Under the pieces are notes generated by a model. It was not told the DNA's origin, did no database searches, and was given only the letters and a program-made list of their open reading frames with translations. Made by a program: the position numbers and the translations under genes. Of a stretch of 61,276 nt of DNA, positions 434 to 60,965 are shown in pieces; position 1 is the stretch's first letter, and each line of letters starts with the position of its first letter. The stretch is from a virus: the IMG/VR virus record IMGVR_UViG_3300024262_000031, positions 1 through 61,276 of that record. One strand, given 5' to 3'.

Positions 434-466
434 CAAAAAACTACCTCGTGAAAAGAGTAAAAATGA

Positions 467-488
467 GGGGCTAGGACACCCTAGCCCC
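467..488 (-). terminator. intrinsic terminator of the 504-1235 gene
   Basis: A perfect 9-bp stem (GGGGCTAGG/CCTAGCCCC) with a 4-base loop lies just after the stop of the leftward gene at 504. On the leftward strand it is followed by TCATTTTTA, a T-rich tract, which fits a rho-independent terminator. Confidence 0.7.
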
Positions 489-503
489 TAAAACATTACC
501 TCA

Positions 504-1235
504 TTAGCGAGCCCGTCCGCCCGCTACATCGTCCGCTACACGTTCTATGCTCGAACCTTCACGAGCTAAGAACTTTTCAACCTCTTCCCGAATTGCTTCA
601 TCCGATGGCAGGTTGTCAAATGGGGTCGAACACTTATGCACAACCATCACGTGCCAACCGTACGTCTTCTTCTGAGCATACTTTACCCCAAGGGTACACA
701 TCAGAGGCCCATGTGCCTCGACGAGCTTCCCTGTTCGTTGCGTATACTCCGCAGCCTGTTCGTCAGTAAGTTGTACATACGGGAAAATACTACGTGACGA
801 AATTCGCCCCGACGCATTTCCACAGAACAACTCGTAAAACTTACCACTCGACCGTTCAAAGATAAGGAACGTTGGGCCAAACATACAGCCCGAATCCTTC
901 TCTCCAGCCGCCACTTCAATCCTTTGAAACTCGTCAGAAGCCGCATCATAAACTTCAATTATAGCGTCCCTATCGCTGGTGTCCAATGCCTTTGGACGCC
1001 ACGTGAATGGAATGATATCCACCTCGTCACCGAGGTCCAGAACCTCATCCTCACCCATCGGTACACCATAATGGCCAGCCGGAACACATCCTTTGTCAAT
1101 CATCCGGCCTTTAGTAAACAATTGGATACGTTGCAGGAAGTCTGACCCCTTTGTCAAACTCTCAAACACATCCATTCCTACACCACAACTCGGAAGCTGC
1201 TCACCCTTGTACACTACAATTTCTTCACTACTCAT
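504..1235 (-). CDS. hypothetical phage protein (243 aa)
   Basis: A full-length leftward gene of 243 residues with normal composition, starting at ATG 1235. No family is recognised. The central part is rich in Asp/Glu (residues ~60-110). It contains a Gly-Pro segment (CMFGPTFLIFER) and an Ala/Glu-rich C-terminus ending GGRAR. No membrane segment or signal peptide is visible. It follows the ParB-like gene by 42 bp, so the two are probably co-transcribed from the palindromic element at 2247. It is closed by the hairpin at 467-488. Its position next to replication genes suggests a role in DNA metabolism or early takeover, but that is only inference. Confidence 0.8.
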   Translation of the reverse strand: MSSEEIVVYKGEQLPSCGVGMDVFESLTKGSDFLQRIQLFTKGRMIDKGCVPAGHYGVPMGEDEVLDLGDEVDIIPFTWRPKALDTSDRDAIIEVYDAASDEFQRIEVAAGEKDSGCMFGPTFLIFERSSGKFYELFCGNASGRISSRSIFPYVQLTDEQAAEYTQRTGKLVEAHGPLMCTLGVKYAQKKTYGWHVMVVHKCSTPFDNLPSDEAIREEVEKFLAREGSSIERVADDVAGGRAR

Positions 1236-1277: not shown

Positions 1278-2222
1278 TTAATCGTTTGTCAAATTGTCAT
1301 TCAAATTTTCCGCATCTTTCAGCCTATCTCGGTCTTTTTTCCTCCTTCTTACGTCTCGGTCCATTCTGTCTTTTTTACCTTGCGCCGATTTCTTTTGATC
1401 CTCTACCCCTTTTGGGTCCATATGTAACACCCATTCGACGGCCCTCCTCCATGCGGCTATTGGGGATAGTTCCTCGACAGCGATATACGTTGCACCAACT
1501 TCACAAAACTCCTTCTCATACGTAACTTCACGTAACGAGCGATAAAAGGGATGAGGTTCAAATTGAAGCTCATAGAAATCTGCCATGCATCCCTGTCGCA
1601 GTGCTTCTCTATATTTCTTGATTGCGTTCCGTGCAATAGGTGAAAAATCCCGGTATGGATAGAGTTGTGCTTGTTGTGTCAATTGTTCTTGCCACTGTTT
1701 AGGTAGCTTTGCTAACAATCGTGCCGATTTTACGGGTATTTCCCCACGATCCAGGCTTTTCTGAAGCTCGGGTCTAAGGCTCCGCAAGGACAACGTATCT
1801 TGTATCCATTCAACATTCTTTCGTAACCTTCCTGCAAGTTCCACAAAAGTCATTTCCACGTTTGCCTTCAGAATTCGATCTAAATGGTCGGCAAACTCAC
1901 AAGGCTTAGTTTCGGGCCGAATCGCGTTGGCCTGAATCTGAGCAAACAACACGTCCGTGTCATCTTCCATATCCTTAATAATACAGGGGATTGTTTCTAA
2001 CCGATGCTGTCTCGCTACGGCATAGCGATAAAGACCATCAATTAACTCATATTTCCCTATCAACTGTTTTGATGGGCGAACACTGATGGAGTTCAAAAAC
2101 CCGTAATCCCGAATCGAGTCACACAGTTCCTTGTAATCTAGTGAACCCCTGTCCACTAGTCTTAACAGGTGCGTCGGCTCAATGATTTCACGTAGCGGGA
2201 TGTTTTGTACTTGGTCGTTCAT
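1278..2222 (-). CDS. ParB/Srx-like nuclease-domain protein
   Basis: A 314-residue protein. Residues ~5-100 match the ParB/sulfiredoxin fold: an initial IPLREI segment, then a 'DSIRDYGFLNSISVRP' strand-helix-strand, then 'KYELIDGLYRYAVAR', the usual G-x-R/H-R-x-x-A region, although the canonical GERR is degenerate (GLYR). Residues ~105-170 look like the helical DNA-binding part of ParB (MTFVELAGRLRKNVEWIQDTL). The C-terminus (~270-314) is highly charged and probably disordered. Phage proteins of this type act as segregation-like DNA binders, transcription regulators or nucleases, and the sequence alone does not decide. The gene starts 25 bp from a palindromic element copy and is divergent from the primase-helicase gene. 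It could be the protein that binds the repeats there (inference). Confidence 0.82.
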   Translation of the reverse strand: MNDQVQNIPLREIIEPTHLLRLVDRGSLDYKELCDSIRDYGFLNSISVRPSKQLIGKYELIDGLYRYAVARQHRLETIPCIIKDMEDDTDVLFAQIQANAIRPETKPCEFADHLDRILKANVEMTFVELAGRLRKNVEWIQDTLSLRSLRPELQKSLDRGEIPVKSARLLAKLPKQWQEQLTQQAQLYPYRDFSPIARNAIKKYREALRQGCMADFYELQFEPHPFYRSLREVTYEKEFCEVGATYIAVEELSPIAAWRRAVEWVLHMDPKGVEDQKKSAQGKKDRMDRDVRRRKKDRDRLKDAENLNDNLTND

Positions 2223-2246: not shown

Positions 2247-2316
2247 CCTCTATCTATTCCTATCGCGATTTTCGCCTCTAACCGATAGAAAATTGCATTT
2301 GGGTACTGGATTCTAG
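2247..2316 (-). promoter_or_regulatory. palindromic ~70-bp control element, copy A (faces left)
   Basis: Read on the leftward strand it runs TCTAGAATCC, AATGCAATTTTCTATCGG, then GCGATAGGAATAGATAG, ending 25 bp before the ParB-like start. CTATCG and CGATAG form inverted half-sites about 17 bp apart. Close copies lie at 2351-2420, 2751-2826 and 55571-55640. It always points toward the adjacent gene start, as a promoter or operator would. Confidence 0.72.
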
Positions 2317-2350
2317 TAATTCGGCGCGCTGCAGCTACCTCGGTACCAAT

Positions 2351-2420
2351 TTCTAGCATCAAGGGATATCCTGCAATTTTCTATCGCTTTGCGCTCATTT
2401 TAGCGATAGGAATAGATAGT
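2351..2420 (+). promoter_or_regulatory. palindromic ~70-bp control element, copy B (faces right)
   Basis: Rightward copy: TTCTAGCATC, GCAATTTTCTATCG, TTTGCGCTCATTTTAGCG, ATAGGAATAGATAG. The core palindrome GCGCTcATTTTAGCG is intact. It lies about 480 bp upstream of the primase-helicase gene. Any transcript started here would run through the inverted repeat at 2438-2543. Confidence 0.7.
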
Positions 2421-2437
2421 GGGGGGCACCAAGACCG

Positions 2438-2543
2438 TTACTGAGTTATCAGTTATTCACGTCTCGCTTTCCACGGTATATATATATTTTAGAGTAGGTC
2501 TTTACTAGATCAACTCACTAATAAGTAATTGATAACTCAGTAA
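2438..2543. repeat. long inverted repeat with AT-rich centre; candidate replication origin
   Basis: The arm TTACTGAGTTATCAGTTA (2438-2455) matches the reverse complement of 2526-2543 at 17 of 18 positions. Between them is an AT-rich stretch that includes an alternating TA run (2477-2487). A further partial copy (AGTTATCAGGCAGTTAT) follows at 2583-2599. Inverted repeats around an AT-rich segment, next to the replicative primase-helicase gene, resemble a phage origin, but a transcription control role is also possible. Confidence 0.5.
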
Positions 2544-2678
2544 TTTCAAAGCGTGAGACCCCTATGAGAGTAGCGTTTGAGCTAGTTATCAGGCAGTTAT
2601 TTGACAAACCGAAAATAACTCGATTTCTAGAATATCCTGATAATAGAATGTAGTCAATTTGATACACAAATTTATTTC

Positions 2679-2705
2679 CTAGAATCGAGTTCCAAAATGC
2701 AATTT
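2679..2705 (+). repeat. half copy of the palindromic control element
   Basis: CTAGAATCGAGTTCC followed by AAAATGCAATTT matches only the upstream half of the ~70-bp element, ending where CTATCG would begin. It is preceded by GTAGTCAATTTGAT (2650-2663), which recurs before copy C (2739-2752). The region has therefore been built by local duplication followed by decay. Confidence 0.55.
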
Positions 2706-2750
2706 GTGGTCCTCTTTTTCGATAACCAAAAACCAGTGTAGTCAATTTGA

Positions 2751-2826
2751 TTCTTAGAATTTAGTACCACTAATGCAATTTTCTATCGGTTTGCGCTCGT
2801 ATCAGCGATAGGAATAAATAGAGAGT
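2751..2826 (+). promoter_or_regulatory. palindromic ~70-bp control element, copy C (faces right)
   Basis: TTAGAATTTAGTACC, AATGCAATTTTCTATCGG, TTTGCGCTCGTATCAGCG, ATAGGAATAAATAGAGAG. It ends about 75 bp before the primase-helicase start codon and faces it. The central palindrome is less perfect than in copy E, while the flanking CTATCG and CGATAG are kept. Confidence 0.72.
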
Positions 2827-2901: not shown

Positions 2902-5655
2902 ATGCCAACGTATCCAATAGTAACTACAGCAATCAGAGCTTTTTTGGAGCACACAAAAACTGAGTTCAACGCCGATTTAGTAGAGCGTTATCAGAGAAAC
3001 ATGGAAGCACAGGTTAATATCCATCCGGGGGAGGATGGTGAACGTAGCGACAAAGCTAAGAATACCTATACAAACGGAACACTTGAGTGGTTCAATTTCC
3101 GTGTCCCTAAGAAAGCAATGTCGGAACCAGAACATAATGACTGGCGAATCAAATGGCCATTAGAGCTATATGCCGATGGTATAGGTATGACAGGGTGGAA
3201 TTGGGAGGGGCGGGTATCAATGTGGGCAGCTTATGACTTTGACAGTATTACTGAGCACGCTAAGGGCGTCGGCTTAGACCAAAACAGCTTGATTGAAGTC
3301 CAAGAGCGGGCCGCAAAGATACCGTGGATTCAAGTTCGGAAATCCACAGGCGGTGGTGGTATTCACTTGTATGTTTACTTCAATCCTAATGATTTACCTA
3401 AAACTGAGAATCATACTGAGCACGCAGCGTTGTCTAGGGCGGTCTTAGGATTGATGTCGGGTGAAGCCGGTTTTGATTTTCAATCAAAACTAGATGTATG
3501 CGGTGGTAACATGTGGATTTGGCACCGCAAGATGACCCCAGTTAATGAAGGTCTGAAAATTATCAAAGAGGCTGAGCACGCTTTAACTCATTTACCTTTG
3601 AATTGGCGAGACCATATACCAGTAATTACGCGAAAGCGTGATACCGTATATATGCCAGGGATTGAAGAGAAGGATGAACCCGCTTTTCAAAAACTGTCAA
3701 CGTCTCTAAAGCGTATCCCTCAAGATGAGACTCATAAGGCGTTTGTTCGTTGGATGGTTGAACATGGGCAATACACAGCCGCGTGGGTAGCCGATCATCA
3801 TTGTTTACACGCCCATACATCTGGGGTACGGGATTATGTTACGGCCCTCCGATCAAAAGGGGATAATATACGTGGTTTCTTTGAAACCAATAGTGGTGGT
3901 ACCGATCCCAACCAACCTAATTGTTTCCTGTTTCCTATGCCTGAAGGAGCTTGGAAAATAGTTCGATTTGGTCGTGGAACAAATGAAGCACCTACTTGGC
4001 AGAATGATAAAGAGAATTGGACATGGTGCTTTTTCAATAGAACCCCTGACTTGCAAATGTCTGCATCTGCTTTTGGGGCGTTAGACACTGAAAAGCGAGG
4101 TTACGACTTTACGGATATTGAGTCGGCTGAGAAAGCTATTACACATTTAGGGTCTATGAATGGATTGTCACTTCCACCCGAGTTTGTAGACCGTCCCCAT
4201 GCTACGTTTAGGTCACATAAGGATGGACGATTGATTGCGACTATTCCAAGTAATGATGCTGATAAAGAAGAGGCTATGCGGAAACATGGGTGGGTGAAAG
4301 AACGTGGAAACAAATGGCAACAGATATTCAATGTACAAACCCGAATCAAGGATTCGATAGCCGCTGCTGCCCCGGAACTCAAAGACATGGATGAAAAGAT
4401 TCGTGCTGTCATTGATACTGAGGGTCGAGAGGGCGGTTGGTATGTATTGAATGCACAAAATGTGTGGTCACTTCAACCAAAGGACAACATCAAAGATGTT
4501 TTGATTTCGATGGGTTATAAATCCGATGAAGCGAAAGCTATCGTAGGGGATTGTGTAAATCGAGCCTGGACAAAGATCAACATTCCGTTTGGCGTAGAGT
4601 TCCCAGGGAATCGCCAATGGAACAAGGACGCGGCTCAGTTTCGATATCAACCGACCGACCTTGAACCGACCGGCATTAAGCATCCTCACTGGGATAAGGT
4701 GATGGCCCATTGTGGGCGTGACCTGGATAACATTCTCAAGCACTCTGCTTGGGGTCAACAATACAATGTCAAAACAGGGCGAGATTATTTGACCCTCTGG
4801 ATTTCTTGTATGTTTCGTGACCCTTACGAGCCCTTGCCATACCTGTTCTTTTTTGGCAATCAGAATTGCGGTAAGTCTATCTTCCGCGAAGCTATCGAGT
4901 TATTGTGTACACGAGGCTGTGTACAAGCGGACAACACGCTCGTTAATACCTCGGGGTTCAATGGTGAACTTTACGAAGCCATCCTTGCCTATGTTGAAGA
5001 GGCTGACTTGTCTAAGGGTGGAACACTGGCCTACAATCGTATCAAAGAGTTTGTGACTAACGATAAGCTGTCTATTCATATCAAACGTCAACAGCCTTTC
5101 ATGGCTCCTAACACAACTCACTGGTGTCAGATGGCCAATTCCAGAGACAACTTACCTATCTTTCCTGGGGATACTCGTATCATTGTCATCCATGTGGCAG
5201 ATTTAATGGACGAGATTCCAAAGCGGGTATTGAAAGCTAAGCTTCGAGAAGAGGCCCCTCAGTTTATGCAAACACTTATGCAGTTGGAACTACCACCTGC
5301 TACAGGACGTTTACGACTTCCGATTCTGACGACAGATAGTAAGGAAGCTTCAGAAGAGGCTAGTAAAGACCCATTGATGGTATTCCTTGAAGAGAACTGT
5401 CATTATGTGAAGGGTGAACGCACACTCTTCAAAAAGTTCTACGACATGTTTCACGAATCATTGCACCCCTGGGAAAAAGGACAGTGGTTGAAGCGAAAAG
5501 TAAGCAGTGCCATGCCACGAGAGTTCCCGGTAGGGGCAGGTACAGGTAATCAAAAGTATGTTGGGAATTTGAGTCTCGTAGAAAAAGACGCTAAACCAGA
5601 TGCCAAGCCTCTGGTCGTTCGGAACAAGTATTTAGTCGATGGTGAGGACGAGTAA
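2902..5655 (+). CDS. primase-polymerase / SF3 helicase fusion
   Basis: A 917-residue replication protein. The N-terminal part carries archaeo-eukaryotic primase (PrimPol) signatures: YDFD with D112 and D114 as metal ligands, then STGGGGIHLYVYF with H155 as the sxH motif. The C-terminal part is a superfamily 3 helicase: Walker A GNQNCGKS (652-659), a Walker B-like YVEEADL (697-703), and a motif C-like segment NSRDNLPIFPGDTR near residue 750. The family primes and unwinds phage or plasmid DNA at the origin. The start is supported by GAGGAG seven bases before the ATG. It opens the rightward replication operon and overlaps the next open frame. No separate DNA polymerase is in the window, so the polymerase is either elsewhere in the genome or supplied by the host. 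Confidence 0.93.
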   Translation: MPTYPIVTTAIRAFLEHTKTEFNADLVERYQRNMEAQVNIHPGEDGERSDKAKNTYTNGTLEWFNFRVPKKAMSEPEHNDWRIKWPLELYADGIGMTGWNWEGRVSMWAAYDFDSITEHAKGVGLDQNSLIEVQERAAKIPWIQVRKSTGGGGIHLYVYFNPNDLPKTENHTEHAALSRAVLGLMSGEAGFDFQSKLDVCGGNMWIWHRKMTPVNEGLKIIKEAEHALTHLPLNWRDHIPVITRKRDTVYMPGIEEKDEPAFQKLSTSLKRIPQDETHKAFVRWMVEHGQYTAAWVADHHCLHAHTSGVRDYVTALRSKGDNIRGFFETNSGGTDPNQPNCFLFPMPEGAWKIVRFGRGTNEAPTWQNDKENWTWCFFNRTPDLQMSASAFGALDTEKRGYDFTDIESAEKAITHLGSMNGLSLPPEFVDRPHATFRSHKDGRLIATIPSNDADKEEAMRKHGWVKERGNKWQQIFNVQTRIKDSIAAAAPELKDMDEKIRAVIDTEGREGGWYVLNAQNVWSLQPKDNIKDVLISMGYKSDEAKAIVGDCVNRAWTKINIPFGVEFPGNRQWNKDAAQFRYQPTDLEPTGIKHPHWDKVMAHCGRDLDNILKHSAWGQQYNVKTGRDYLTLWISCMFRDPYEPLPYLFFFGNQNCGKSIFREAIELLCTRGCVQADNTLVNTSGFNGELYEAILAYVEEADLSKGGTLAYNRIKEFVTNDKLSIHIKRQQPFMAPNTTHWCQMANSRDNLPIFPGDTRIIVIHVADLMDEIPKRVLKAKLREEAPQFMQTLMQLELPPATGRLRLPILTTDSKEASEEASKDPLMVFLEENCHYVKGERTLFKKFYDMFHESLHPWEKGQWLKRKVSSAMPREFPVGAGTGNQKYVGNLSLVEKDAKPDAKPLVVRNKYLVDGEDE

Positions 5656-5707
5656 GGCAATGCGGCGTAAACGTAAAATGAATATAACTGGAAAGAAGGA
5701 GTATGTT

Positions 5708-6271
5708 GTGAGTAACGACACAGATAGCCGTAAATTTACCCCCGAGGACTACTTAGATATAGGTCTGCCACCCAAATCAAAATTTAAGGACTCTGGAACC
5801 CGTTCTGAATTCGGAACAGGTGCCGTTCGAGATGCTCAGGACGGTAAAGGTCGTATGGATTTGATGCCTATACGAGCCTTGTTTGAAGTAGCCAAGGTAT
5901 TTGAGGAGGGTTCTAAAAAATATGCTGCCCACAACTGGCGTAAAGGCATACCACTTTCTCGTTTCATGGACAGTGGTATGCGACACGCTGCAAAATATCT
6001 ACGAGGCGATCGTGATGAACCTCATGATGCAATGGCATGTTGGAATTTTCTCTGTTTGATCGAAACTCGAATGATGATAGAGGAGGGATTGTTGCCAGAA
6101 AGTTTGAATGATTTGATATTCAATCCCTTGGATATAAATGATAATCCTTTGGGTATCCAAGAAACTCACCCCGGGGATGGTTATATTCATTGTGCCACTT
6201 CAAAAGAACAATCCCCATCAACTAATACAAATCAATTAGTTGATGCTGAGACGACAGATGAAGGTTATTAG
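5708..6271 (+). CDS. dATP/dGTP diphosphohydrolase-family protein (DUF5664-like)
   Basis: A 187-residue protein if translation starts at GTG 5708, which has AAGAAGGAG six bases upstream; an in-frame ATG at 5639 inside the previous gene lacks a good ribosome site. The conserved block is typical of the phage family named dATP/dGTP diphosphohydrolase N-terminal domain: RMDLMPIRAL (49-58), KYAAHNWRKG (71-80) and RHAAKYLRGD...EPHD (92-107). These all-alpha NTP-pyrophosphatase-like proteins bind metal with acidic and His residues and lower dATP/dGTP pools. In some phages they accompany purZ and 2-aminoadenine DNA, but no purZ is in this window. It is probably co-translated with the primase-helicase gene. 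The C-terminal ~60 residues are poorly conserved in appearance and probably flexible. Confidence 0.8.
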   Translation: MSNDTDSRKFTPEDYLDIGLPPKSKFKDSGTRSEFGTGAVRDAQDGKGRMDLMPIRALFEVAKVFEEGSKKYAAHNWRKGIPLSRFMDSGMRHAAKYLRGDRDEPHDAMACWNFLCLIETRMMIEEGLLPESLNDLIFNPLDINDNPLGIQETHPGDGYIHCATSKEQSPSTNTNQLVDAETTDEGY

Positions 6272-6272
6272 A

Positions 6273-6494
6273 ATGAACCCGAATGACGATGTACGGAGAT
6301 TCATCGCGGGCGGCTTTGCAGACTTCATGCTGGCCCTAATAGAACAACCCCAGCCGATAGTGGCTGGGGGTGGCTATTCGCGAGACAAGCTCGTTGCTGC
6401 TTTCAACAAGTGGGCAGCCGAGCGTAATTTTAATGTCAAGAACGGCAATCTTCAAGAGTGGAGAAAGGCGTGTAAAATGGGGAAACTAGAATGA
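6273..6494 (+). CDS. small hypothetical protein (73 aa)
   Basis: ATG 6273 is preferred because GAAGGT lies seven bases upstream; an in-frame ATG at 6240 overlaps the previous gene. The product begins MNPNDDVRRFIAGGFADF and carries a basic, Trp-containing C-terminal helix (EWRKACKMGKLE). No family is recognised. Its stop overlaps the exonuclease start by four bases (ATGA), indicating translational coupling within the replication operon. A small accessory or DNA-binding role is possible but not shown. Confidence 0.75.
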   Translation: MNPNDDVRRFIAGGFADFMLALIEQPQPIVAGGGYSRDKLVAAFNKWAAERNFNVKNGNLQEWRKACKMGKLE

Positions 6495-7111
6495 CAACTC
6501 AACACAACGGATTTGTTCATATCAACGGTAACATCATGTGTGCTATTGATGTTGAAACCACGGGTCGAGAACCGGGCTACCATGAAATCATCCAGATTGC
6601 CATTTTGCCTCTGGATAGCGATCTAAGGCCCAACGATAAACTACGGCCCTTCTATACTACTATCGCCCCAGAGCACCCTGAGAGGGCCGAGAGAACCGCT
6701 ACAGCCGTCCACAACCTGGACCTCCAGTATCTTATGAAGCATGCGCCTGACAAATGGAAGGTGGCAGACCTCCTGGACGACTGGTTCCAGAAGCTCGACC
6801 TACCATTCAGAAAGAGTATCATCCCGCTGGCCCATAACTATGCCTTTGAGGCAGGGTTCTTGAAAAGTTGGTTGGGGATGGAATCCTTTAATCATTTTTT
6901 TCACCCTCACCCTCGCTGCTCAATGTTGTTAGCCTTGAGCCTCAATGACCGGGCAGCAATGCGTGGTGTAGAGGTCTATTTTCCCTACGTCTCTCTGAAT
7001 CGCCTTTGCAAATGCTTCAAGGTGCGCAATGAAAACGCCCACGATGCTTTAAGCGATGCGCGGGCGGAAGCTGAAATCTATCGGTCACTTTTGATGATGT
7101 ACCTGGACTAG
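6491..7111 (+). CDS. DEDDh-type 3'-5' exonuclease (DnaQ/RNase T-like)
   Basis: A 206-residue exonuclease. Exo I is AIDVETTG with D20 and E22. Exo II is LAHNYAFEAGFL, in which the usual Asp is Glu (E120). Exo III is HDALSDARAEAE with H184 and D189, the DEDDh order. The family removes 3'-terminal nucleotides from DNA or RNA using two metal ions, as in proofreading, RNA end trimming or nucleotide salvage. It is the last gene of the rightward replication operon, translationally coupled to the small gene before it. Its end overlaps by 27 bp with the convergent leftward gene at 7085. The Asp-to-Glu change may reduce or alter activity. Confidence 0.9.
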   Translation: MTTQHNGFVHINGNIMCAIDVETTGREPGYHEIIQIAILPLDSDLRPNDKLRPFYTTIAPEHPERAERTATAVHNLDLQYLMKHAPDKWKVADLLDDWFQKLDLPFRKSIIPLAHNYAFEAGFLKSWLGMESFNHFFHPHPRCSMLLALSLNDRAAMRGVEVYFPYVSLNRLCKCFKVRNENAHDALSDARAEAEIYRSLLMMYLD

Positions 7112-12780: not shown

Positions 12781-14424
12781 TTAGCCCCCACTTGTTAATT
12801 CAAATGACAAAGATGCCGACAGATTACAAGTATCGCGGTTACGAACAATCGGTTCTTCCGTTGATGTAATAACACCTAACCATTCTTGTCCTTCCCAATC
12901 TCGGAGTTTTACTTCTTTCCCTAACGACGTGGTAACAAAGTCTAACAAGTCTTGTCCTTCGATTTCGGTTAAGCCAATAAACTGAAATTCGAGTTGCTTT
13001 ACCTGGGGCCAAATGGGATCAGCATACACTGTGAGGGTGCCACCACGGGTCTCTCGATTGATCCGGTGTGGTGACAAACGCTCTCTATTTCCTAGCTCGG
13101 GACCACGTAGTGTCAGAACCTCGGTAGGTGTCGTCACAGGGTACGAGAGTTCGATGTTATTGTTGGTATAAGCTAGGGTGGGTGGTGTCACTGACGGCGG
13201 CTCAGGGGCATCTGGGTCGGTTGTAGAGCCTACAGAAGGGGCATAGTCACAGAATGTGGTATCCTGAATAAATACAAATCCAAGAGTTGATTTTGCATTG
13301 ATGATATTACTGGCTGCCCGATTATAGACGACGGAAACACTAACCGATTGTCCCAATTCTAAGGTATTACCGGCTGATAACAGGGTTGGACGCGAGCCAA
13401 TAACATGCACAACAGAGGCCGTGGAAGTCATTTCAGTATACACTGAGTTCCAGTACCCACTTACAGCATCATACGAACGGGATTCCCAGCCTGTTAAAAC
13501 ACTCCCTGCTGTCATCCTAAATGACCCGGGTGTGGTAGCTATTTGAATATCAATGGTGTTACCAACTGACCGACTTAGAATCTTTTGAACCGATACACTT
13601 TGATTCACTCCAATTGTATTGCTTGCAAATGGATGTGAGGATGGCCAACCCTCGTGATCAATTCCAATGTCACTTTCTACACTGCGATTAAGTACTTTTT
13701 GAACCGAGACACTTTGCCCCAAAGATAATACGGACGAGACCCCCAGGGTCACATCAACATCGAGAGTTTGTCCAAGACTCAAAGTACTAATGGCAGTTCC
13801 AAAACGAGTACGAGTGGTCGTAACGTCTTGTGACATGGAGAGAGTATTATCCGCATCTTCCATATGCTGGTTGTTTTCGATGCCTTGTCCAAGACTAATA
13901 GTGTTACCGACACTGGGATACCGAACAACACTTACAGAAACCTCTTGCCCGAGGGTTAGGATACTCTCTGCCGTCTCCTGCTTAAAAACAGACTGTCCGA
14001 GTATGAGAGCATTACCAACCGAAAGGTTACGAACAACTGATAATCCAACGTCCTGTATAATCCCAAGAGTATTTCCAGCACTTACAAATAGGGTATGACT
14101 AACTAACGCTTCCTGAGATATAGAAAGCGTATTATCAGCGTCTTCCATGTGCTGGTTTGTGTCTGTACCCTGATTCAGGGGTATTGTATTTCCAGCCGAG
14201 AGACTACGTACGTGAACGACACTAACACTTTGCCCTACGCCTATCGTGTTTCCAGCTACCTCGGGCGTGATTCTTGTAAGATACTCAACACTAAGGTTAT
14301 GAACACGTAATTTACCATTCTGCGCAGCACCAGCCACCATGACAGCTTGACCACCAACTCGAAGCTGGGTAGCCAAACGTCCGATAACTTCAACTTGCTG
14401 ACGAGATAGCCTTACATTGGCCAT
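12781..14424 (-). CDS. tail protein with 20-residue repeats and a tail-tip beta-domain
   Basis: A 547-residue protein. Residues ~40-390 contain degenerate repeats of about 20 residues with the pattern N-T-L-x-L-x-Q-x-V-S-V-x-x-V-x-x-R-S-x-G (for example SAGNTLELGQSVSVSVVYNR). The same family fills the 1742-residue protein at 27762-32990. A Pro/Thr linker follows (~400-425), then a C-terminal domain (~425-547) homologous to the small protein at 11629-12039. It overlaps the next gene upstream by one base. The likely role is a tail-tip component with a surface-exposed beta-repeat array. Repeat copies are more diverged here than in the large protein. Confidence 0.72.
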   Translation of the reverse strand: MANVRLSRQQVEVIGRLATQLRVGGQAVMVAGAAQNGKLRVHNLSVEYLTRITPEVAGNTIGVGQSVSVVHVRSLSAGNTIPLNQGTDTNQHMEDADNTLSISQEALVSHTLFVSAGNTLGIIQDVGLSVVRNLSVGNALILGQSVFKQETAESILTLGQEVSVSVVRYPSVGNTISLGQGIENNQHMEDADNTLSMSQDVTTTRTRFGTAISTLSLGQTLDVDVTLGVSSVLSLGQSVSVQKVLNRSVESDIGIDHEGWPSSHPFASNTIGVNQSVSVQKILSRSVGNTIDIQIATTPGSFRMTAGSVLTGWESRSYDAVSGYWNSVYTEMTSTASVVHVIGSRPTLLSAGNTLELGQSVSVSVVYNRAASNIINAKSTLGFVFIQDTTFCDYAPSVGSTTDPDAPEPPSVTPPTLAYTNNNIELSYPVTTPTEVLTLRGPELGNRERLSPHRINRETRGGTLTVYADPIWPQVKQLEFQFIGLTEIEGQDLLDFVTTSLGKEVKLRDWEGQEWLGVITSTEEPIVRNRDTCNLSASLSFELTSGG

Positions 14425-15479
14425 TACTCAACCCCCACGCCAAATTTAGCAGCATTTAATTTGTCAATAGTCCAAGCATTGCTTGTCTCTGGGTCATCTT
14501 CAAAGACAAAACGATAATTACCCCCCAGATTATCACCGAATGTTTCATTAGCGGTAGCTTGTGTACCATTCGAGTCTGCAATCCCTTCCAATGTAAAATA
14601 GCCAACATCGGTGACAGCAGCATGAACATTAAGTTGCACACCAAGTACCGGCCAGGTAGAGGCATCAAGGGCATTTGCAAACGTGAATAAATCTACATCG
14701 TTAGCTGTATCACTTTCTACATAGTTAGCAGTATCAACTGGAATATTATTGACTTGATCGTAGTGATTTGCACCTGTTGAAGTCCAGTCAGTGATGTCAT
14801 CTCCGTCCGGAAGTAACACCCGCACCTTCACAGGTCCGAATGGTTCTTGAACATCACCAGTATTGTCATAGACATAGATATCGTCAATTTTAACATTGGT
14901 GTTAGACCAAGGTGTCCATAGATGGCCATAAGCGTTGTCACTATATGTTGGAACAGACGATGTATCTATGCCAATTTCGGACTCTATTAGTGTACCATCA
15001 AGATACAGTTTCCAATAACCATTAGGTGAGTCTGCGACTTTCCATTTAATTTCAATATAGTACCAAGTATTAGGTGCTATCAGACCTGTTGCAGTGGCTT
15101 TACTCCCACTCGCATAATAGACCGTAAATCCCCCGTCAGTCTTAGTATAAAGACTCATAACCCCACTATAATAATTCACACCCGGATTAAGCGCTCGATA
15201 CAAATAACCATTGGCAGAACGGCTACCCGAGTTCCAAGCAAATCCTACAATCAACTCTGATGAAACGGGGTCATGTGTATGAACGAGTTTATAACTTGTA
15301 CCACTCGATACAAAATCAAAACAAAGACCCTGACCCTCGTAAGCACTGTCACTTAGTTTAGCTGACGTGGCGGCACTAACATTAGACAATTTCTTGAGCA
15401 TAATGTCTTGTAGACTGCTGCCAGTATCTCCATTAGCACCGAAGGTTTCAAAGCCTTCAATTAACAATAAACCCGCCAT
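14424..15479 (-). CDS. tail fibre paralogue 3 of 3, concanavalin A-like fold
   Basis: A 351-residue protein that starts with the shared signature LLIEGFETFG. Residues ~20-215 look like a concanavalin A/LamG-type jelly roll: WYYIEIKWKV, then GYWKLYLDGTLI, then KIDDIYVYDNTGD. The second half has the shared block GPVKVRVLLPDGDDITDW and TWPVLGVQLNVHAAV, ending DDPETSNAWTIDKLNAAKFGVGV. Two close relatives lie immediately upstream (15495-16565 and 16565-17617), so the trio arose by tandem duplication. Such proteins bind glycans or act as fibre/structural lectins. A one-base overlap links it to the 12781-14424 gene. Confidence 0.75.
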   Translation of the reverse strand: MAGLLLIEGFETFGANGDTGSSLQDIMLKKLSNVSAATSAKLSDSAYEGQGLCFDFVSSGTSYKLVHTHDPVSSELIVGFAWNSGSRSANGYLYRALNPGVNYYSGVMSLYTKTDGGFTVYYASGSKATATGLIAPNTWYYIEIKWKVADSPNGYWKLYLDGTLIESEIGIDTSSVPTYSDNAYGHLWTPWSNTNVKIDDIYVYDNTGDVQEPFGPVKVRVLLPDGDDITDWTSTGANHYDQVNNIPVDTANYVESDTANDVDLFTFANALDASTWPVLGVQLNVHAAVTDVGYFTLEGIADSNGTQATANETFGDNLGGNYRFVFEDDPETSNAWTIDKLNAAKFGVGVE

Positions 15480-15494
15480 GTCTAACTCCCTCGA

Positions 15495-33396: not shown

Positions 33397-34803
33397 TTAA
33401 CCAAGCAGGACCGAGCCGAGGCGCACGTCCAAAGTCTTCACGCCGCACAGAATGTCGAGAGTGACAACAGTACCTTGCGCATACACATCGTATTGCATCG
33501 TAACACGCATGGCCACATCGTTGTACACACCAACCTGCGACCGCACACCGAGAGCACCGGCTGGCAGAGCCAGGGGGCGACTTACGAGAGCGATAGCATC
33601 GCGGTGGAAGCAAAGGTTCATAGAGCCACCCGGACCTGGGAAAACGTCAGAACTGTCAGCGACGGTGTCTTCCAAAGGTCGATCCAGCCAAACCTCTCGG
33701 TCGCCAGCCGCATCGAATGACTCGATAACGGTATAAATCTTACCAGCGATCTTCAAGATTTGACCAACTCGCGGATGCTTGCCAGTAGTAAAGCTGTCAA
33801 GATTGATGCCCTTGGCCCAACCAGCAGCGTAACCGCCACCGAAGTCAATGGCACATTTCTTGTAAACGGTGATGGGATCATTAGCTGATACCGCATACTT
33901 CAGAGGCGCATCCAGAGCGATAAAGTCAGTATCGCTCGCGTTGGCTGCGGCCACTGTCAGCACAGTTGGCTGACCGTCACTTGAGATGACACAGTACTCG
34001 CCGACAAAAGCGACGTAGTCCGGATCAAGATCAACTGCGATGTTAGCACTGTAACCAGCAGCGTAACCTACAGTCGTTTCACCGGGGGCTGTGTCAAGAT
34101 TCACCGGGTCCAGACCAGTAACGTTCTGATCCATCCAGGTGTCGAAACCAAGAACCCGACCCAAAGCCGCTTCACGAAGGGCACGGCCACTGTCGCCACG
34201 CTCGTTGGCCTTCAAGAACATCTCTGTCTTGAGCATAGCCGTCTCAGCAGACGGAGCCAATACGCAGTTACGGTTTTCTGGGAACGCAAGGTTCTCATTC
34301 ATGGTCTCACGAGCCTCAAGCAAGTAATCCTTGGCGTTCAAGGCACTCAGGGCGCTAAGACGACCAACACGGTTGGCCAAGAATTGTGGAACCTGACCCA
34401 AAATGGCACGGTCGATACCGCGAGCGATACCTTGCATACCTGGGAGCAGATAAATGTCCACGAGTTCCTGGAATGACTTACTCGCTTCACCGTCCTTGAT
34501 GGTAAACGAGATATACATGTGCTGATCCAGGGGAACTTGCACATTGGTAGACTGTGCATCTTGTAGCACAATGGCGTCAGCATCAGTCTTACGCTTGGTA
34601 CTGAACGTACCAGGTCGACGAGTGTTCACTACGTCGCCGTAGTTGGCAACCTCGGGCGAAAAGTCACGGTGGACTAGCCCAGCCATTACCATATTTTCTT
34701 CAAGAATGTGCAGACCTTCCATCGCCCACAGTTCCGGGAAAAACGCAGAGTTTTCGTTGTCAAACAACGCAACCTCTGCCTGACAAAGATAAAGACTATT
34801 CAT
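33397..34803 (-). CDS. major capsid protein, P22 coat-like
   Basis: A 468-residue protein with the P22 gp5-like coat pattern. The N-terminal helix region is LCQAEVALFDNENSAFFPELW, then ALHILEENMVMAGLVHRDF and VANYGDVVNTRRPGTF, which is the strand-rich E-loop-like part. It continues with YISFTIKDGEASKSFQELVD, GIARGIDRAILGQ, RNCVLAPSAETAMLK, and a beta insertion in the C-terminal third (YCVISSDGQPTVLTVAAANA). The HK97 fold with a P22-type telokin-like insertion is expected. The scaffold gene lies directly upstream and a strong terminator directly downstream, as usual for coat genes. The GGAGAT ribosome site lies eight bases before the ATG. No N-terminal protease-cleaved delta domain or prohead protease gene is seen. 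Confidence 0.9.
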   Translation of the reverse strand: MNSLYLCQAEVALFDNENSAFFPELWAMEGLHILEENMVMAGLVHRDFSPEVANYGDVVNTRRPGTFSTKRKTDADAIVLQDAQSTNVQVPLDQHMYISFTIKDGEASKSFQELVDIYLLPGMQGIARGIDRAILGQVPQFLANRVGRLSALSALNAKDYLLEARETMNENLAFPENRNCVLAPSAETAMLKTEMFLKANERGDSGRALREAALGRVLGFDTWMDQNVTGLDPVNLDTAPGETTVGYAAGYSANIAVDLDPDYVAFVGEYCVISSDGQPTVLTVAAANASDTDFIALDAPLKYAVSANDPITVYKKCAIDFGGGYAAGWAKGINLDSFTTGKHPRVGQILKIAGKIYTVIESFDAAGDREVWLDRPLEDTVADSSDVFPGPGGSMNLCFHRDAIALVSRPLALPAGALGVRSQVGVYNDVAMRVTMQYDVYAQGTVVTLDILCGVKTLDVRLGSVLLG

Positions 34804-43668: not shown

Positions 43669-45525
43669 CTAATTTTGTTGGTTGTCGCGGCCTTCGCCAC
43701 GAACAGGTTTCTTGATAGATTCACGCATGGTCACATCCCGGCTCTCTTCTTTTTCTTCTTTACCTTCCGTAGCCGGATCGGAAGATACGTCGGTGAGACC
43801 TCGGGCTCCAGCCCGATCCTTATTACCCTCGCTACTCTCAGTTTCCTCGTCTCCTGATTGCGCTTCCTTTATACGCGATATACGCTCCATGTGGTCCTTC
43901 CTAGCTTGGAGGTATTCATTATCACTAAAGCCTAGAGCAATTGAGGCCGTTTGCTCACCAACTAACCCCGCCTCGCGCGACTTGATAATTACTTCAGGGT
44001 CGCTAGTGGTATAGTTTGCCGTCTCAACTTCCTTGTAGATTCGGTCTAAAGTATCCACTGAAACCTTCCCTGATAGCAGTGTAGATACAATAGTCTTCGC
44101 AAGCTCACGTTTAACTGTACCGCCAGGTACCGTGTACATAAGCTCAGCGACTTTGGTTGCCTCTTCAATACGATTTTTGTCAGTCTTCAAACTGTACCTA
44201 TCGGGATACTTGATTGTCGGGACCAAACGTTTTCGAGAAACACGTTCCTCGTACGCGGACCAAAATTCACCAATTCGACGCTCAGCACCTTCTAGGATGA
44301 GACCAATAAATGACAACCCAGCTTCCAAGCCTTGGTTATCCATTTCCTTGGACTCGGGTGATACACGCTTTCCAACTTTATTTTGTACAGCAAGCTGTAC
44401 TAGTTTACGTATATCGTCCTCAAGTTTTTCTTGCAGCTTAATAGAGGCTTCTAATGGTTCAGGTGACGGATGGATAAAGGACGGGGCTTCCATTTTCATG
44501 TCGTAAGCACGACCTTGGGTAGCACCCACTGTGATTTCTTTATCATGTGCGCCTTGCCCACCAGAAGTAGCCGTTCCATCGGGATTAGCTGCGTGTTTGA
44601 GGTGGTCTCCAACGGCACGCAAGTCTTGTTGTTCAATGTAAAAGGGATAATTCGCTTTCAACGCATACGCTACATCACTTGAGCCTAAATTCAATAAAGC
44701 GATTTGGTGTCTACATACATCCTTCAGTAAACTGTCACCTATATCCAACAACACAAACGGAATTTGAGTGAGTTCGAGTTCGATTGGTGCGTCCGTAGCT
44801 GGCATACCAGTGTACCTATCGACAGGGAGTCCTTTTGTGTCAAAGAATTGTACGTTTACTTTTCCAGTATCTTGATTGATCCACACCAGCCTGAAACGTT
44901 CGTAGGTGCCATCTGGGATACTAATCTGATATCCACCAGGTTGTTTGAACGTCGCACATCTATCCCGTAATAAAATGGCTTGAAATTCTTCTGGTCTACT
45001 GGGGTCAGAACAGGTCCATGAAAGAATGTCTTCTACTGGATATCTGTATAAATATGGTCGCATTTCGACTGTATCCGCAAGACTAGCTTGGCCACCGAAA
45101 CTTGGGGTAGTGACTGGCATATCAATATAACAACCGACCCGCCCCATTACTAGCAATTCTGTTAGGATATCAACACCCATGAACTTGTCCATACTGGACC
45201 CCTTCATGTCGATGCCGCCTTGTAATCCTTGAATAGCGTACTTATACGACTTAGAACCACCTTTACGAACGGCGTCGTTCAGGCGTTGAAAAATAGAGTT
45301 ACGCACATCGTTTACAGCAGCCTTAGCAAAGGCGGGTATGGGAGTAATAGATTTTCGTGAGTTGAAATCATCGTCACTCTCACGTGTCGTGAACTTTCGC
45401 AAATAGCTATTTACGAAGTACTCACCAGACTCGTACGTGTCTCTCCATAGTTGCCAATATCCCAAGTCCTTAATATAGACTGGGTGTCTAGCAGCAACTA
45501 AATTATGAAAGGTTGGACTCGCCAT
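43669..45525 (-). CDS. portal protein (DUF4055-like)
   Basis: A 618-residue portal candidate. Landmarks of the DUF4055 portal group are YIKDLGYWQLWRDTYESGEYF with FTTRESDDDFNSRKSITPIPAFAK near the start, ILTELLVMGRVGCYIDMP, and ILSWTCSDPSRPEEFQAILL. Others are FVLLDIGDSLLKDVCRHQIA with LLNLGSSDVAYALKANYPFY, and a long helical C-terminal wing (PEPLEASIKLQEKLEDDIRK). The end (560-618) is acidic and disordered. The portal ring sits at one capsid vertex and binds terminase. The gene lies between terminase and head fibre genes, as expected. A homing endonuclease gene and a small gene separate it from terminase. Confidence 0.88.
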   Translation of the reverse strand: MASPTFHNLVAARHPVYIKDLGYWQLWRDTYESGEYFVNSYLRKFTTRESDDDFNSRKSITPIPAFAKAAVNDVRNSIFQRLNDAVRKGGSKSYKYAIQGLQGGIDMKGSSMDKFMGVDILTELLVMGRVGCYIDMPVTTPSFGGQASLADTVEMRPYLYRYPVEDILSWTCSDPSRPEEFQAILLRDRCATFKQPGGYQISIPDGTYERFRLVWINQDTGKVNVQFFDTKGLPVDRYTGMPATDAPIELELTQIPFVLLDIGDSLLKDVCRHQIALLNLGSSDVAYALKANYPFYIEQQDLRAVGDHLKHAANPDGTATSGGQGAHDKEITVGATQGRAYDMKMEAPSFIHPSPEPLEASIKLQEKLEDDIRKLVQLAVQNKVGKRVSPESKEMDNQGLEAGLSFIGLILEGAERRIGEFWSAYEERVSRKRLVPTIKYPDRYSLKTDKNRIEEATKVAELMYTVPGGTVKRELAKTIVSTLLSGKVSVDTLDRIYKEVETANYTTSDPEVIIKSREAGLVGEQTASIALGFSDNEYLQARKDHMERISRIKEAQSGDEETESSEGNKDRAGARGLTDVSSDPATEGKEEKEESRDVTMRESIKKPVRGEGRDNQQN

Positions 45526-45931: not shown

Positions 45932-46444
45932 ATGAAAGAACAGTGGCGAGACGTAGTCGGATATTCGGGATATTATCAGGTCTCGAATCTTGGTCGAGTT
46001 AGATCAGTTGATCGAGTTATAAAACATCAGTATTCTGGTACACTAAGGCTAAAAGGACAAGAACTTCAACAATGTCTTAGAGGTAGTTATCTTGCAGTGG
46101 GCTTATGTAGGGGTGGAATTACACGAACTATTCGCGTTCATCAGCTTGTAGCGACTGCATGGATAAAACCTAACTCCAGTGGTCAAAAAGTTAGACATGG
46201 TGTTAATGGTAAACTAGATAACTCGGTTACTAATCTTTCCTACGGCTCATTGAGTGATAATCAACTCGATAGGCGTCGAGATGGGACACACCGAGGGAAA
46301 CCTGTACGGCGGAGTGATGGGGTTGAATTTATTAACATGCAAGTAGCGGCTGAAGAATCAAATTGTCGTGCTAATAGTATCTGTAGTGTTTGTAAAGGTA
46401 AACATAAAACTACAGGTGGTTATGGTTGGGAATACATTTTATAG
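45932..46444 (+). CDS. NUMOD4-HNH homing endonuclease, intact
   Basis: A 170-residue single-module relative of the double gene at 17751. NUMOD4 (EQWRDVVGYSGYYQVSNLGR) is followed by the HNH core (VHQLVATAWIKP, RHGVNGKLDNSVTNLSYGS), RRDGTHRGKPVRR and NUMOD1-like DNA-binding residues (SDGVEFINMQVAAEESNC; VCKGKHKTTGGYGWEYIL). The ATG at 45932 has AGGAGG seven bases upstream. It is inserted between portal-side and terminase genes on the opposite strand, and its stop overlaps the terminase stop by six bases. Intergenic sites beside conserved packaging genes are common homing sites. It acts as a DNA cleaver that promotes its own inheritance in co-infection. Confidence 0.9.
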   Translation: MKEQWRDVVGYSGYYQVSNLGRVRSVDRVIKHQYSGTLRLKGQELQQCLRGSYLAVGLCRGGITRTIRVHQLVATAWIKPNSSGQKVRHGVNGKLDNSVTNLSYGSLSDNQLDRRRDGTHRGKPVRRSDGVEFINMQVAAEESNCRANSICSVCKGKHKTTGGYGWEYIL

Positions 46445-48106
46445 GAAAGCTTTGATATCTTTGTTCGTTACATAACTAGCTGCTAAGGGGAGAGCTATCT
46501 CAGAATAGCAACGGGCGTGAGCGTAATGATCAGCACCTGTTTCAACGTATTTGGCCACTGGGTTACCCAGTTCATCTCTTTCATACGTTCTTACTATGTT
46601 TTTCAATTGCTCTCGGTACTCCCGACCAATGTCACGAGGTAACATAATTCGTTTGGAACGAAATCGTCCCAAAGCCGCGTCTAACCAATTGGTTCGATCT
46701 ACAGTAGCTATTGAGGCTCCTAGATCATCCTCTTGTATCGAAATCTCTTTCCCTGTCTGTCCGCGTCTGTAACGACATAAAGACACATAACCGCGAAACC
46801 GTCGTGCAAACCGTCGAGCGTCATTGATTTGGGGTTCAGCATCTATCACACAGTGCATGATTTGCCACGTTCTCATAAGCTCGTCGAGTCGCTCAAACTC
46901 GTCACCAGCTATTTTACCCACCCAAAGAACTTTAGCGGTGGCTGCAACATTCAAATCATGTGACATTGTATCAAAGAAATATTCAGTTATTTCTACGTTA
47001 TGCCACAGACCTTGGTCTACCCCCATTACAATTAAACGGTCACTTCCTGTAGGTCTCTGCTCTTCTGAAATATAGTTAGCTAAACATTCATCAAGCATAT
47101 CGTCCGTGATTTGTCCACCTTCTGGGATGTAAGGAATGCCAAGTTTAGAGTTATTAAATTCAACGTTGGCTGCTTCATCTCCTAACCCCCGATGGTAAGC
47201 TTCAACTAATTCGCCGGGATTCACTGTCCGTGAATACATTTGATTCACGTGAAAACTTCTGTGATCCTTACCAGATTCTTCATTTGTGACGTGCCAGTTT
47301 GCCGTGTCTAACCAATCAGCTTTGGTTTCGTGGTCTAGTTTATGTCCACACTCTTTACATTTGAGATAAGAGTCTGCACATCGGGGATCATTTACATCTT
47401 CGCCAAAAATCTCGATACAGTCTGGCCAAGTAAGCTCAGTCCATTTGTTACAGTGCGGGCATTGAAATACCCACTCTTCCATTGTTCCCTTAACGTATAA
47501 TTTGTGTATGCCATATTTTGGAAGGGTCGGTGTGCTGATTGCAAAAATACTTTTGTCCATGTGCCCTGATAGACGTTCCATTGCCCGCCAAATAACTGCT
47601 TGATCCATCTCATCTAATTCGTCGAGAATTAGATATGACACTGGGATGGATTTTAGATTACTGTCGCCACGCGAACCACGAATATACAGTGGTATGGCTC
47701 CCGCTTGTTTCAAACTGATGGTATTAGTATCTGTAAACAATCCAGCAATATACGGTGAGTTCAGACAAGCACCACTGAATCGAGTTTTTGAGAAGTCGGA
47801 TGCATTACCTGCGGTGGGTAAAACGTATAAAACAGCCTTCTTCAACACATCTATTGTGAAAAAGGCTCGATTGATAGCTATCTCGGTTACGCCTAGCTGG
47901 GCTCCCTTCATCACTACATTGGTAGAAGCTTGTGAGTCAGATATCTCTCGACACCAAGGATGATTTGCAAAACTGAATGGTCCTGGAAAGTCTGTTTCTT
48001 CGCCCATGACGCGTCGATAGTTTGCCCACTTTGAACAAGTCGTGATGGTTCTGCTTCGCAAACCTTCTGCAATCGACTGGCGTAATTCGTTTATCAATTC
48101 ATTCAT
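46439..48106 (-). CDS. terminase large subunit (GpA-like)
   Basis: A 555-residue packaging ATPase-nuclease. The Walker A variant is KGAQLGVT (67-74), and Walker B is YLILDELDEMD (D162, E163). A motif III-like FAISTPTLPK follows at ~188. A zinc-ribbon insertion follows: CPHC (216-219) and CKEC (250-253), as in lambda GpA-family enzymes. The nuclease part has VMGVDQG (~350), the first metal Asp, and further acidic residues downstream (CVIDAEPQ). It pumps DNA into the procapsid through the portal and cuts the genome. Start ATG 48106. No small terminase is recognised with certainty; the 54970-55512 protein is a weak candidate. Confidence 0.93.
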   Translation of the reverse strand: MNELINELRQSIAEGLRSRTITTCSKWANYRRVMGEETDFPGPFSFANHPWCREISDSQASTNVVMKGAQLGVTEIAINRAFFTIDVLKKAVLYVLPTAGNASDFSKTRFSGACLNSPYIAGLFTDTNTISLKQAGAIPLYIRGSRGDSNLKSIPVSYLILDELDEMDQAVIWRAMERLSGHMDKSIFAISTPTLPKYGIHKLYVKGTMEEWVFQCPHCNKWTELTWPDCIEIFGEDVNDPRCADSYLKCKECGHKLDHETKADWLDTANWHVTNEESGKDHRSFHVNQMYSRTVNPGELVEAYHRGLGDEAANVEFNNSKLGIPYIPEGGQITDDMLDECLANYISEEQRPTGSDRLIVMGVDQGLWHNVEITEYFFDTMSHDLNVAATAKVLWVGKIAGDEFERLDELMRTWQIMHCVIDAEPQINDARRFARRFRGYVSLCRYRRGQTGKEISIQEDDLGASIATVDRTNWLDAALGRFRSKRIMLPRDIGREYREQLKNIVRTYERDELGNPVAKYVETGADHYAHARCYSEIALPLAASYVTNKDIKAFL

Positions 48107-54969: not shown

Positions 54970-55512
54970 CTAATCGTCGCCTTGATCTTTCCCAGCCGTA
55001 AGGATGGCTGAGACTATTCGGTCACTGATCTTGTCAATTATGATATCACTGTCGTCGATATCTTCTAGTTCTTCTATGATAATCTCTATAATCTCGCGGC
55101 CCAGGGCCACTATAGAAGACTTAGAGAGTAACGTACCGAGATTACGTTCTACCAGATTACAAGCTTTAACCAGGCGTTCTACTGTGAGAAGAAGAGAATT
55201 AAGCGTGCCACAAGCAGCGAGTAATTCGCCATCACCTGCAATCATATTGAATCGACTCTCGATTAACATTCTAGCGAATGCAATCTCTTCCCGAAGCGAC
55301 TTGACATCCTCGTGGTCACTTAGGGTAGCGAGACGGCCAGAATAGCGCGCATCAGTCAGCAAATAGTGACGCATTTTAGCAGCCTCAACGCGACCCTCAG
55401 CACGATAGTCATGCCCTGCACAATACAGGGAGCCTTCGACTCGCTCTTGGGTACATTGAGCCTTGTCACTTACATGCTGGCAGCGTTTGTCGGGGTCTGC
55501 TATTCGTGGCAT
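54970..55512 (-). CDS. first late-block protein, N-terminal zinc-ribbon-like motif (180 aa)
   Basis: A 180-residue protein with Cys and His spaced as a metal site at the start (C12, C20, C31, H34: CQHV, QCTQERVEG, LYCAGH), a basic helical middle, and long acidic helices at the end (EIIEIIIEELEDIDDSDIII). It is the first gene after the palindromic element at 55571, so it leads the leftward late transcript. First position and helical character would suit a small terminase subunit or a transcription regulator; terminase small subunits often begin with DNA-binding helices, which are not obvious here. No family is fixed. Confidence 0.65.
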   Translation of the reverse strand: MPRIADPDKRCQHVSDKAQCTQERVEGSLYCAGHDYRAEGRVEAAKMRHYLLTDARYSGRLATLSDHEDVKSLREEIAFARMLIESRFNMIAGDGELLAACGTLNSLLLTVERLVKACNLVERNLGTLLSKSSIVALGREIIEIIIEELEDIDDSDIIIDKISDRIVSAILTAGKDQGDD

Positions 55513-55570: not shown

Positions 55571-55640
55571 CCTCTATCTATTCCTATCGCTAAAATTAGC
55601 GCAAACCGATAGAAAATTGCATTTGGGAACTAGATTCTAG
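55571..55640 (-). promoter_or_regulatory. palindromic ~70-bp control element, copy E (faces left, late block)
   Basis: Read leftward: CTAGAATCTAGTTCCCAAAT, GCAATTTTCTATCGGTTTGC, GCTAATTTTAGCGATAGG, AATAGATAGAGGGG. It is the best-preserved copy: the central CGCTAA-TT-TTAGCG and outer CTATCG/CGATAG palindromes are perfect. It lies 58 bp before the first late gene, 53 kb from the copies at 2247-2826 in this window. Confidence 0.78.
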
Positions 55641-55702
55641 AAAATAATTACCATCAGCCCTAGTAAGTGTATATTTGTACACCATATCAACTCGCGAAAA
55701 CT

Positions 55703-55763: not shown

Positions 55764-55792
55764 TTGACATAGCTGCCCCTTTCTGCTATACT
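55764..55792 (+). promoter_or_regulatory. sigma70 consensus promoter P1 for the accessory block
   Basis: TTGACA, 17-bp spacer, TATACT, followed by TACAATAGGAC. The -35 hexamer and spacing are ideal. It starts a transcript about 130 bases before the next supported start codon (55931), so a long leader is made. Confidence 0.85.
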
Positions 55793-55930: not shown

Positions 55931-56419
55931 ATGAATCGCATTCAAGCCTTCGGACAAACATACAGGTCGATTAAATCTCTCGCTCGTGATCCGCGATGCG
56001 TTGTGGACTATTATACGCTCTGGCGACGGATTCGATTTTATGGTTGGGACATAACCGAGGCGGCTACGACCATGGAAGATGAATCCTGGTATGTTGTATG
56101 GGGAGAGAAATTTCCAACACTGAATGACTTGTTAGCTGATTCACGGTGTATGGTTGGAAACCATAGGACGTTAAGCAAACGGATTAAACGTGGTGTCCCG
56201 ATTCAAGATGCAGTTTTAGAACGACCGACCGCAGACTTGAAATTTGAGGTTTGGGGAGAACAATTTGCCAACCTAACAGAGGTTAGTCGCGATTCACGGT
56301 GTGTACCACAATACAAGACGCTAATGTATCGTCTACAAGCTGGCACCCCACTAGAAATAGCTGTGCAAGACAAACAGGTCTTTTTGGACTGGCGGCGAGG
56401 GGATTTATGCGAACATTAG
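55931..56419 (+). CDS. triple-repeat DNA-binding-like protein (162 aa)
   Basis: The start is ATG 55931, just after promoter P2; a longer frame upstream runs through both promoters and is rejected. Three repeats of ~46-50 residues follow the pattern G-Q/E-x-F/Y-x-S/T-L-x-x-L/V-A/S-x-D-x-R-C...T-L-x-x-R-I/L-x-x-G-x-x-I-x-x-A: [34 protein letters not shown] and [17 protein letters not shown]. The unit resembles short helix-turn-helix repeats seen with homing endonucleases and in phage regulators, so DNA binding is likely. It overlaps the glucose-6-phosphate dehydrogenase start by 13 bases. It may regulate the accessory operon or derive from a lost endonuclease. Confidence 0.75.
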
Positions 56420-60945: not shown

Positions 60946-60965
60946 CTCGACTAGAAAGGTAAGAC

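Follow-up and report, generated by a model that had tools for sequence, protein, structure and literature searches.

A bipartite, oriented DNA element at the head of three gene units in an uncultured phage group is probably a promoter read by a phage sigma factor

The stretch of DNA analysed here, hereafter the window, comprises an entire IMG/VR virus record, 61,276 bases long (Table 1). A gene coding for a ParB-like protein, which is kept in 16 of 17 relative records, is followed on the minus strand by the gene of a conserved 243 aa protein, and a terminator-like hairpin lies behind this unit. The predicted fold of the 243 aa protein weakly resembles those of RB69 gp32 and of the phiC31 RDF (Z 6-6.7), and it is perhaps a single-stranded DNA-binding protein. 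It was also considered as a candidate regulator, and a weak likeness to phage single-stranded DNA-binding proteins (Z 6) was found instead. On the plus strand, a primase/helicase gene is followed by a gene matching dATP/dGTP pyrophosphohydrolase families and by an exonuclease gene. Some 50 kb away, a 180 aa gene opens a long minus-strand series of structural genes (portal, terminase, coat). The C/H-rich N-terminus of its product is conserved and the remainder is helical; comparison with PDB folds gave no clear match, and this protein was likewise set aside as a candidate regulator.

Table 1. Features of the window, in order of position.
Feature	Position	Strand	Remark	Basis
Terminator-like hairpin	466..489	-	behind the ParB-like/243 aa unit	
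243 aa gene	504..1235	-	behind the ParB-like gene; putative single-stranded DNA-binding protein	weak fold match
ParB-like protein gene	1278..2222	-	ParB_N + HTH_ParB	domain matches
Copy A	2247..2316	-	at head of ParB-like gene	core matches, alignment, PWM scan
Copy B	2351..2420	+	second primase-facing copy, ~400 bp upstream of copy C	core matches, alignment, PWM scan
Half copy	2676..2705	+	upstream half alone (TTCCTAGAATCGAGTTCCAAAATGCAATTT), core missing	alignment
Copy C	2751..2826	+	at head of primase gene	core matches, alignment, PWM scan
Primase/helicase gene	2902..5655	+	DUF5906	
Gene matching dATP/dGTP pyrophosphohydrolase families	5639..6271	+	behind primase	
Exonuclease gene	6491..7111	+	behind primase	
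P22-like coat protein	33397..34803	-	unit headed by copy E	
Portal protein	43669..45525	-	unit headed by copy E	
Terminase large subunit	46439..48106	-	unit headed by copy E	
180 aa gene	54970..55512	-	first of structural operon	C/H-rich N-terminus + helices
Copy E	55571..55640	-	at head of structural (late) operon	core matches, alignment, PWM scan
Near-consensus sigma70 promoter	55764..55792	+	TTGACA-17-TATACT; serves the element-less plus-strand unit (contrast)	

Four full copies and one half copy of the same element, described in a first-pass annotation made from the sequence, were recovered at the same positions by core matches and by alignment. A pattern scan of the window located the 17 bp core, GCGATAGGAATAGATAG, at 2250-2266 (-), 2403-2419 (+) and 55574-55590 (-), and, with one mismatch, at 2805-2821 (+); 0.08 matches are expected in the window, and none of 100 shuffles gave four. 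The upstream half, AATGCAATTTTCTATCG, lies next to each of the four cores, with two mismatches in copy B, and agreement among the aligned copies spans about 75 bp, from TTnCTAGAATCnAGT through GAATAGATAG. As had been claimed for them, copies A, C and E are oriented toward genes, namely the ParB-like gene (start 2222, -), the primase gene (start 2902, +) and the 180 aa gene (start 55512, -), and they end about 27, 80 and 61 nt, respectively, before the start codons. Copy B faces the primase from about 480 bp away, with copy C in between. Between copies B and C, an 18 bp inverted repeat (94% complementary) around AT-rich DNA (TATATATATATTTTAG) occupies positions 2438-2543 and looks like a replication origin.

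The proposal that the element marks the transcription heads of the phage holds for three of them (ParB-like, primase, structural) and fails for the unit starting at 55667 (+), which has no copy. It is in this element-less unit that near-consensus sigma70 promoters are found, at 55764 and 55881, while none of the listed sigma70-type sites (TTGACA-16/18-TATAAT-like hexamers) falls within the window copies, in agreement with the absence of a sigma70 -10 box already noted for the element. Judging from their functions, the genes headed by the element would be non-early. The element-less unit also includes a glucose-6-phosphate-dehydrogenase-like gene (56299-57696, +; phrog_4941 dehydrogenase), which has a 68% homolog in the closest relative, G001.

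With regard to relatives, the primase as query retrieved 67 related loci, and an alignment of primases retrieved 270, of which 80 were kept. The ParB and primase genes are divergent in most of these loci, as they are in the window. The nearest relative is L009/G001, the L009 primase being 63% identical, and G001 was also the only further member of the window's genus recovered by a pattern scan. In INPHARED, no near-identical phage was found; the primase and ParB gave distant partial matches only, and the portal none. The exact window consensus, searched against viral contigs, produced two stray matches, neither of which is the element. The 180 aa late-head protein found G001 alone when used directly as query, and an alignment search over the records raised its homologs to 14 of 43 relative records. 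When bacterial genomes were scanned, six related loci turned up, five in Planctomycetota assemblies and one in a Bacteroidetes assembly, all of them metagenome-assembled.

A diverged form of the element precedes both ParB and the 180 aa homolog in L009/G001 and also occurs on the primase side, where HNH-type inserts intervene. In nine more distant relatives its sequence differs again, and each of them harbours exactly three copies in the same three places. Whole-record PWM scans of 11 records, picked since three copies had already been seen in them, gave sites at 44-56 bits, four of them in the window and three in each of the ten other records, with the next best site at 14 bits or less; as the matrices were built from each record's own copies, high scores are expected, and the lack of further sites is the informative part. 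Three clear copies were not seen in G042, G025, G030 and G032. Homologs of the 180 aa gene stand behind the element in relatives, and in most of the other records that have this late-head gene, a lineage-specific word from the record's own ParB-primase region recurs just upstream of it. The three places are homologous between records and their polarity is fixed, the element being conserved and oriented upstream of few genes, at three or four sites in each record. The first-pass annotation had named randomly placed copies in other genomes as a result that would refute its reading; these were looked for and not found. In distant relatives, the ParB-primase region contains an inverted repeat with an outward-pointing TATAGGTG-like sequence at the end of each arm. 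In 86 of 99 distinct ParB-primase intergenic regions, an inverted repeat outscored 20 shuffles of the same region, an upper figure because the shuffles preserved base composition only and regions of at least 700 bp were left unshuffled.

The copies are asymmetric and bipartite, consisting of an upstream box, a variable gap and a downstream block of about 20 bp. When the copies within each of 11 genomes were aligned at their TATAGG-like core, identity was high from -28 to -21, dropped to about 0.5 from -20 to -14, and returned to high values between about -13 and +5. Comparison of the two arms in 40 lineages gave values of at least 0.9 at -28 to -23, about 0.5 at -22 to -14, and 0.8-1.0 at -13 to +6; these lineages had been selected for agreement at -10 to +5, so that independent evidence comes from the upstream box and the gap alone. 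Many lineages have their two cores 62 to 68 bp apart, and the upstream boxes therefore abut, the conservation seen at -43 to -37 being the mirrored box of the adjacent copy. The ParB start codon, placed by homology, lies 1-2 nt past the block in nine lineages, which suggests a transcription start inside or right after the downstream block; the earlier designation of GGAATAGATAG as start region fits this arrangement in the equivalent block. As read from the alignments, the anatomy of the element is that of a promoter; its geometry resembles that of promoters of a sigma factor reading two boxes, and we read the spacing as ECF-like. By comparison, the palindrome that was first taken as the defining feature did not survive the inclusion of relatives, since CTATCG-N17-CGATAG is broken in the closest of them (CTCTCG or TTCTCG) and the palindrome is confined to the window's lineage. 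The boxes of the window are also dissimilar to the GAAAA/TAGG pattern of the GC-rich group.

A candidate reader was found among the relatives. Models of sigma70 region 2 and region 4 gave weak co-located matches in several records, and an iterated search merged these into one family of proteins of roughly 200 to 280 aa. Compared with the PDB, the family profile matched 93 sequences at E <=0.01, of which the 60 listed are all sigma factors, and the best match (1l0o_C, 6e-22) extends over both regions; Pfam sigma models alone match few members of the family. The sigma family is present in 15 of 15 records having PolA (family A DNA polymerase), and in the 15 mapped records its gene occupies a constant place, in the order polymerase-endonuclease-sigma-ligase on one strand. 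In most of these 15, ParB, the 243 aa gene and the helicase precede the polymerase-to-ligase group on the same strand (ParB and the 243 aa gene are unplaced in G032, and a contig break lies between the two gene groups in G042). The family was also found in 41 of 59 further records, and among all records of 50 kb or longer, taking the two sets together, 45 of 48 carry a diverged factor of the sigma70 family that has regions 2 and 4, some of them with weak scores.

The family search found no sigma gene in the window record (61 kb), in its closest relative G001 (83 kb) or in G069 (57.8 kb). The polymerase (PolA), helicase and ligase are likewise missing from the window record and G001, so that both may be fragments. 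In G001, the genes past the 243 aa gene differ from the replication genes of the other relatives, and the sigma gene of the window's genus, if present, would thus lie elsewhere than directly behind ParB, or past the end of the record. A second, separate sigma-like family occurs in three relatives (G006:79152-79760, G020:14094-15041 and G023:20462-21226). In other respects, the replication arm of relatives holds a ParB paralog (G031:27355-28158; L112:7858-8658).

Since the DNA-contacting part of a protein that reads the element might follow changes in it, covariation was assessed by partial rank correlations against primase and ParB distance. The peaks were small; the best protein segments reached r 0.33 in the primase and 0.27 both in the sigma linker and in ParB, where the segment falls outside the recognition helix. 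Element change tracked the DNA-binding regions of sigma no better than other proteins, and no excess association with the ParB recognition helix appeared in this low-power test. Because the primase, which is implausible as a reader, peaks too, these peaks represent the noise level arising from shared ancestry, and no single reader stood out from the covariation.

Three other explanations were weighed. The element could be an operator to which the ParB-like protein binds through its HTH, repressing or activating the three units, as KorB, an operator-binding regulator of this sort, does on plasmids. The conserved ParB-like gene adjoins the element, as in ParB/KorB systems, its product has an HTH_ParB domain, and CTATCG-N17-CGATAG is found inside the copies of the window's lineage. 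However, the ParB-family sites known to us are palindromes, whereas the conserved pattern here is asymmetric, with fixed polarity and an oriented, promoter-like placement, and the palindrome fails in relatives; the sequence of the ParB recognition helix shows no excess association with that of the element, and a promoter would still be required where the ParB start codon comes 1-2 nt past the block. We therefore regard an operator role, which the first-pass annotation had entertained, as improbable. We give the same low credence to a promoter served by a phage RNA polymerase, T7-like or of an unrecognised type, or by the host polymerase with a MotA-like phage activator. T7-like promoters likewise consist of a lineage-specific block of about 20 bp with a TATAGG-like end, contiguous, constant within a phage and changing between phages, and a start at or just past the block would suit such a polymerase. 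Yet T7-like polymerases do not require an upstream box at such a position, and the one at -29 to -23 would be superfluous for them; no T7-like RNA polymerase (PF00940) was found in 24 records, some possibly fragments, in a search that recovered the T7 control at 1e-109; the large conserved unknowns examined resemble tail or nuclease proteins; and the sigma factor present in nearly all long records would suffice.

Less probable still is that the element acts not as a promoter but as an RNA leader hairpin or as a site of DNA replication or recombination. Such a role would accommodate the inverted TAGCG core of the window copies, as well as the inverted repeat around AT-rich DNA in the same intergenic region. 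The predicted RNA folds, however, vary from one window copy to another and do not surpass those of shuffles (z -0.25 to -0.91), which gives the hairpin no support, and the arms are unpaired in relatives, while strict orientation toward genes and a single copy before the structural operon are unsuited to an origin or a recombination site.

We consider it likely that the element serves this phage family as a promoter of its own, and that the copies constitute a three-promoter regulon read by the host RNA polymerase with a phage sigma factor. Among the readers first proposed, this retains the phage-specific sigma factor, which is favoured by the three homologous heads, their polarity, the bipartite asymmetry, the lack of extra copies and the sigma gene conserved in relatives, and leaves the phage polymerase, of which no T7-like form was found, and the ParB operator as unlikely. 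Against the reading weigh the lack of the sigma gene in the window record, G001 and G069, the covariation result, the small number of family members matched by Pfam sigma models, and the dissimilarity of the window's boxes to the pattern of the GC-rich group. The phage sigma factor would bind host RNA polymerase and read the upstream box as a -35-like element and the downstream block as a -10-like element with the start region. It would thereby turn on the replication and structural genes following an initial round of transcription by host sigma70, and, as its gene lies in the ParB-led arm, would reinforce its own expression by positive feedback. In the phage of the window, the sigma gene would reside in a part of the genome missing from the 61 kb record.

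To judge from anatomy and gene content, and with the sigma factor seen in relatives only, the present case appears to work like the systems of phages phiEco32 and 7-11. In both, the sigma factor is encoded in the replication-gene cluster and early genes use host sigma70 (PMC8948821). Sigma gp36 of phiEco32 recognises promoters of the type tAATGTAtA and gp47 of 7-11 late promoters of the type GTAAtg-(16)-aCTA, and between the two phages promoter positions are conserved and sequences are not (PMC8948821). Phage 7-11 shares with the present family a sigma factor with region 4 homology, bipartite promoters (in 7-11, upstream of late genes), a sigma gene among replication genes, a proposed positive feedback and sigma70 promoters for early genes. 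It differs in having eight promoters, whereas the present phages have three, two of them often back to back at 62-68 bp, and in that here one sigma family, known from sequence alone, spans many lineages with differing promoter sequences. In phiEco32, a phage sigma factor also serves middle and late genes, and positions are conserved among relatives with differing sequences; its promoters, however, are single-element and gp36 has no region 4 homology, whereas the present family combines an upstream box with region 4. Compared with bacterial sigma70-family factors, among them the best PDB match, regions 2 and 4 align over most of the phage family, but the phage proteins are shorter between the two regions, very diverged and mostly below the Pfam sigma models. 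T7-like phages differ from the present ones by the missing upstream box and by a T7-like polymerase gene, which was not found here.

These results allow a transcription plan to be read for a large group of uncultured phages, some members of which occur in Planctomycetota assemblies, and name a candidate sigma factor that Pfam by itself mostly misses. A bolder and rather doubtful extension is that one orthologous sigma family and the three promoters have repeatedly changed specificity together, giving dozens of lineages with distinct pairs at the same positions, and that the back-to-back ParB-primase pair may also aid the initiation of replication through its transcripts. If confirmed, such a natural series of sigma-promoter pairs with differing specificity would inform how promoter preference changes in sigma factors, and could be a source of orthogonal expression parts.

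Elsewhere in the window, a search with Rfam returned one tRNA and nothing else, and a tRNA-Ser (tga) is located at 60861-60946 (+). Three adjacent phrog_2448 paralogs occupy 14424-17617 (-). The gene at 50226-52262 (-), which perhaps bears an intein, codes for 678 aa; its product contains a LAGLIDADG domain and gives a weak match to C39-peptidase.
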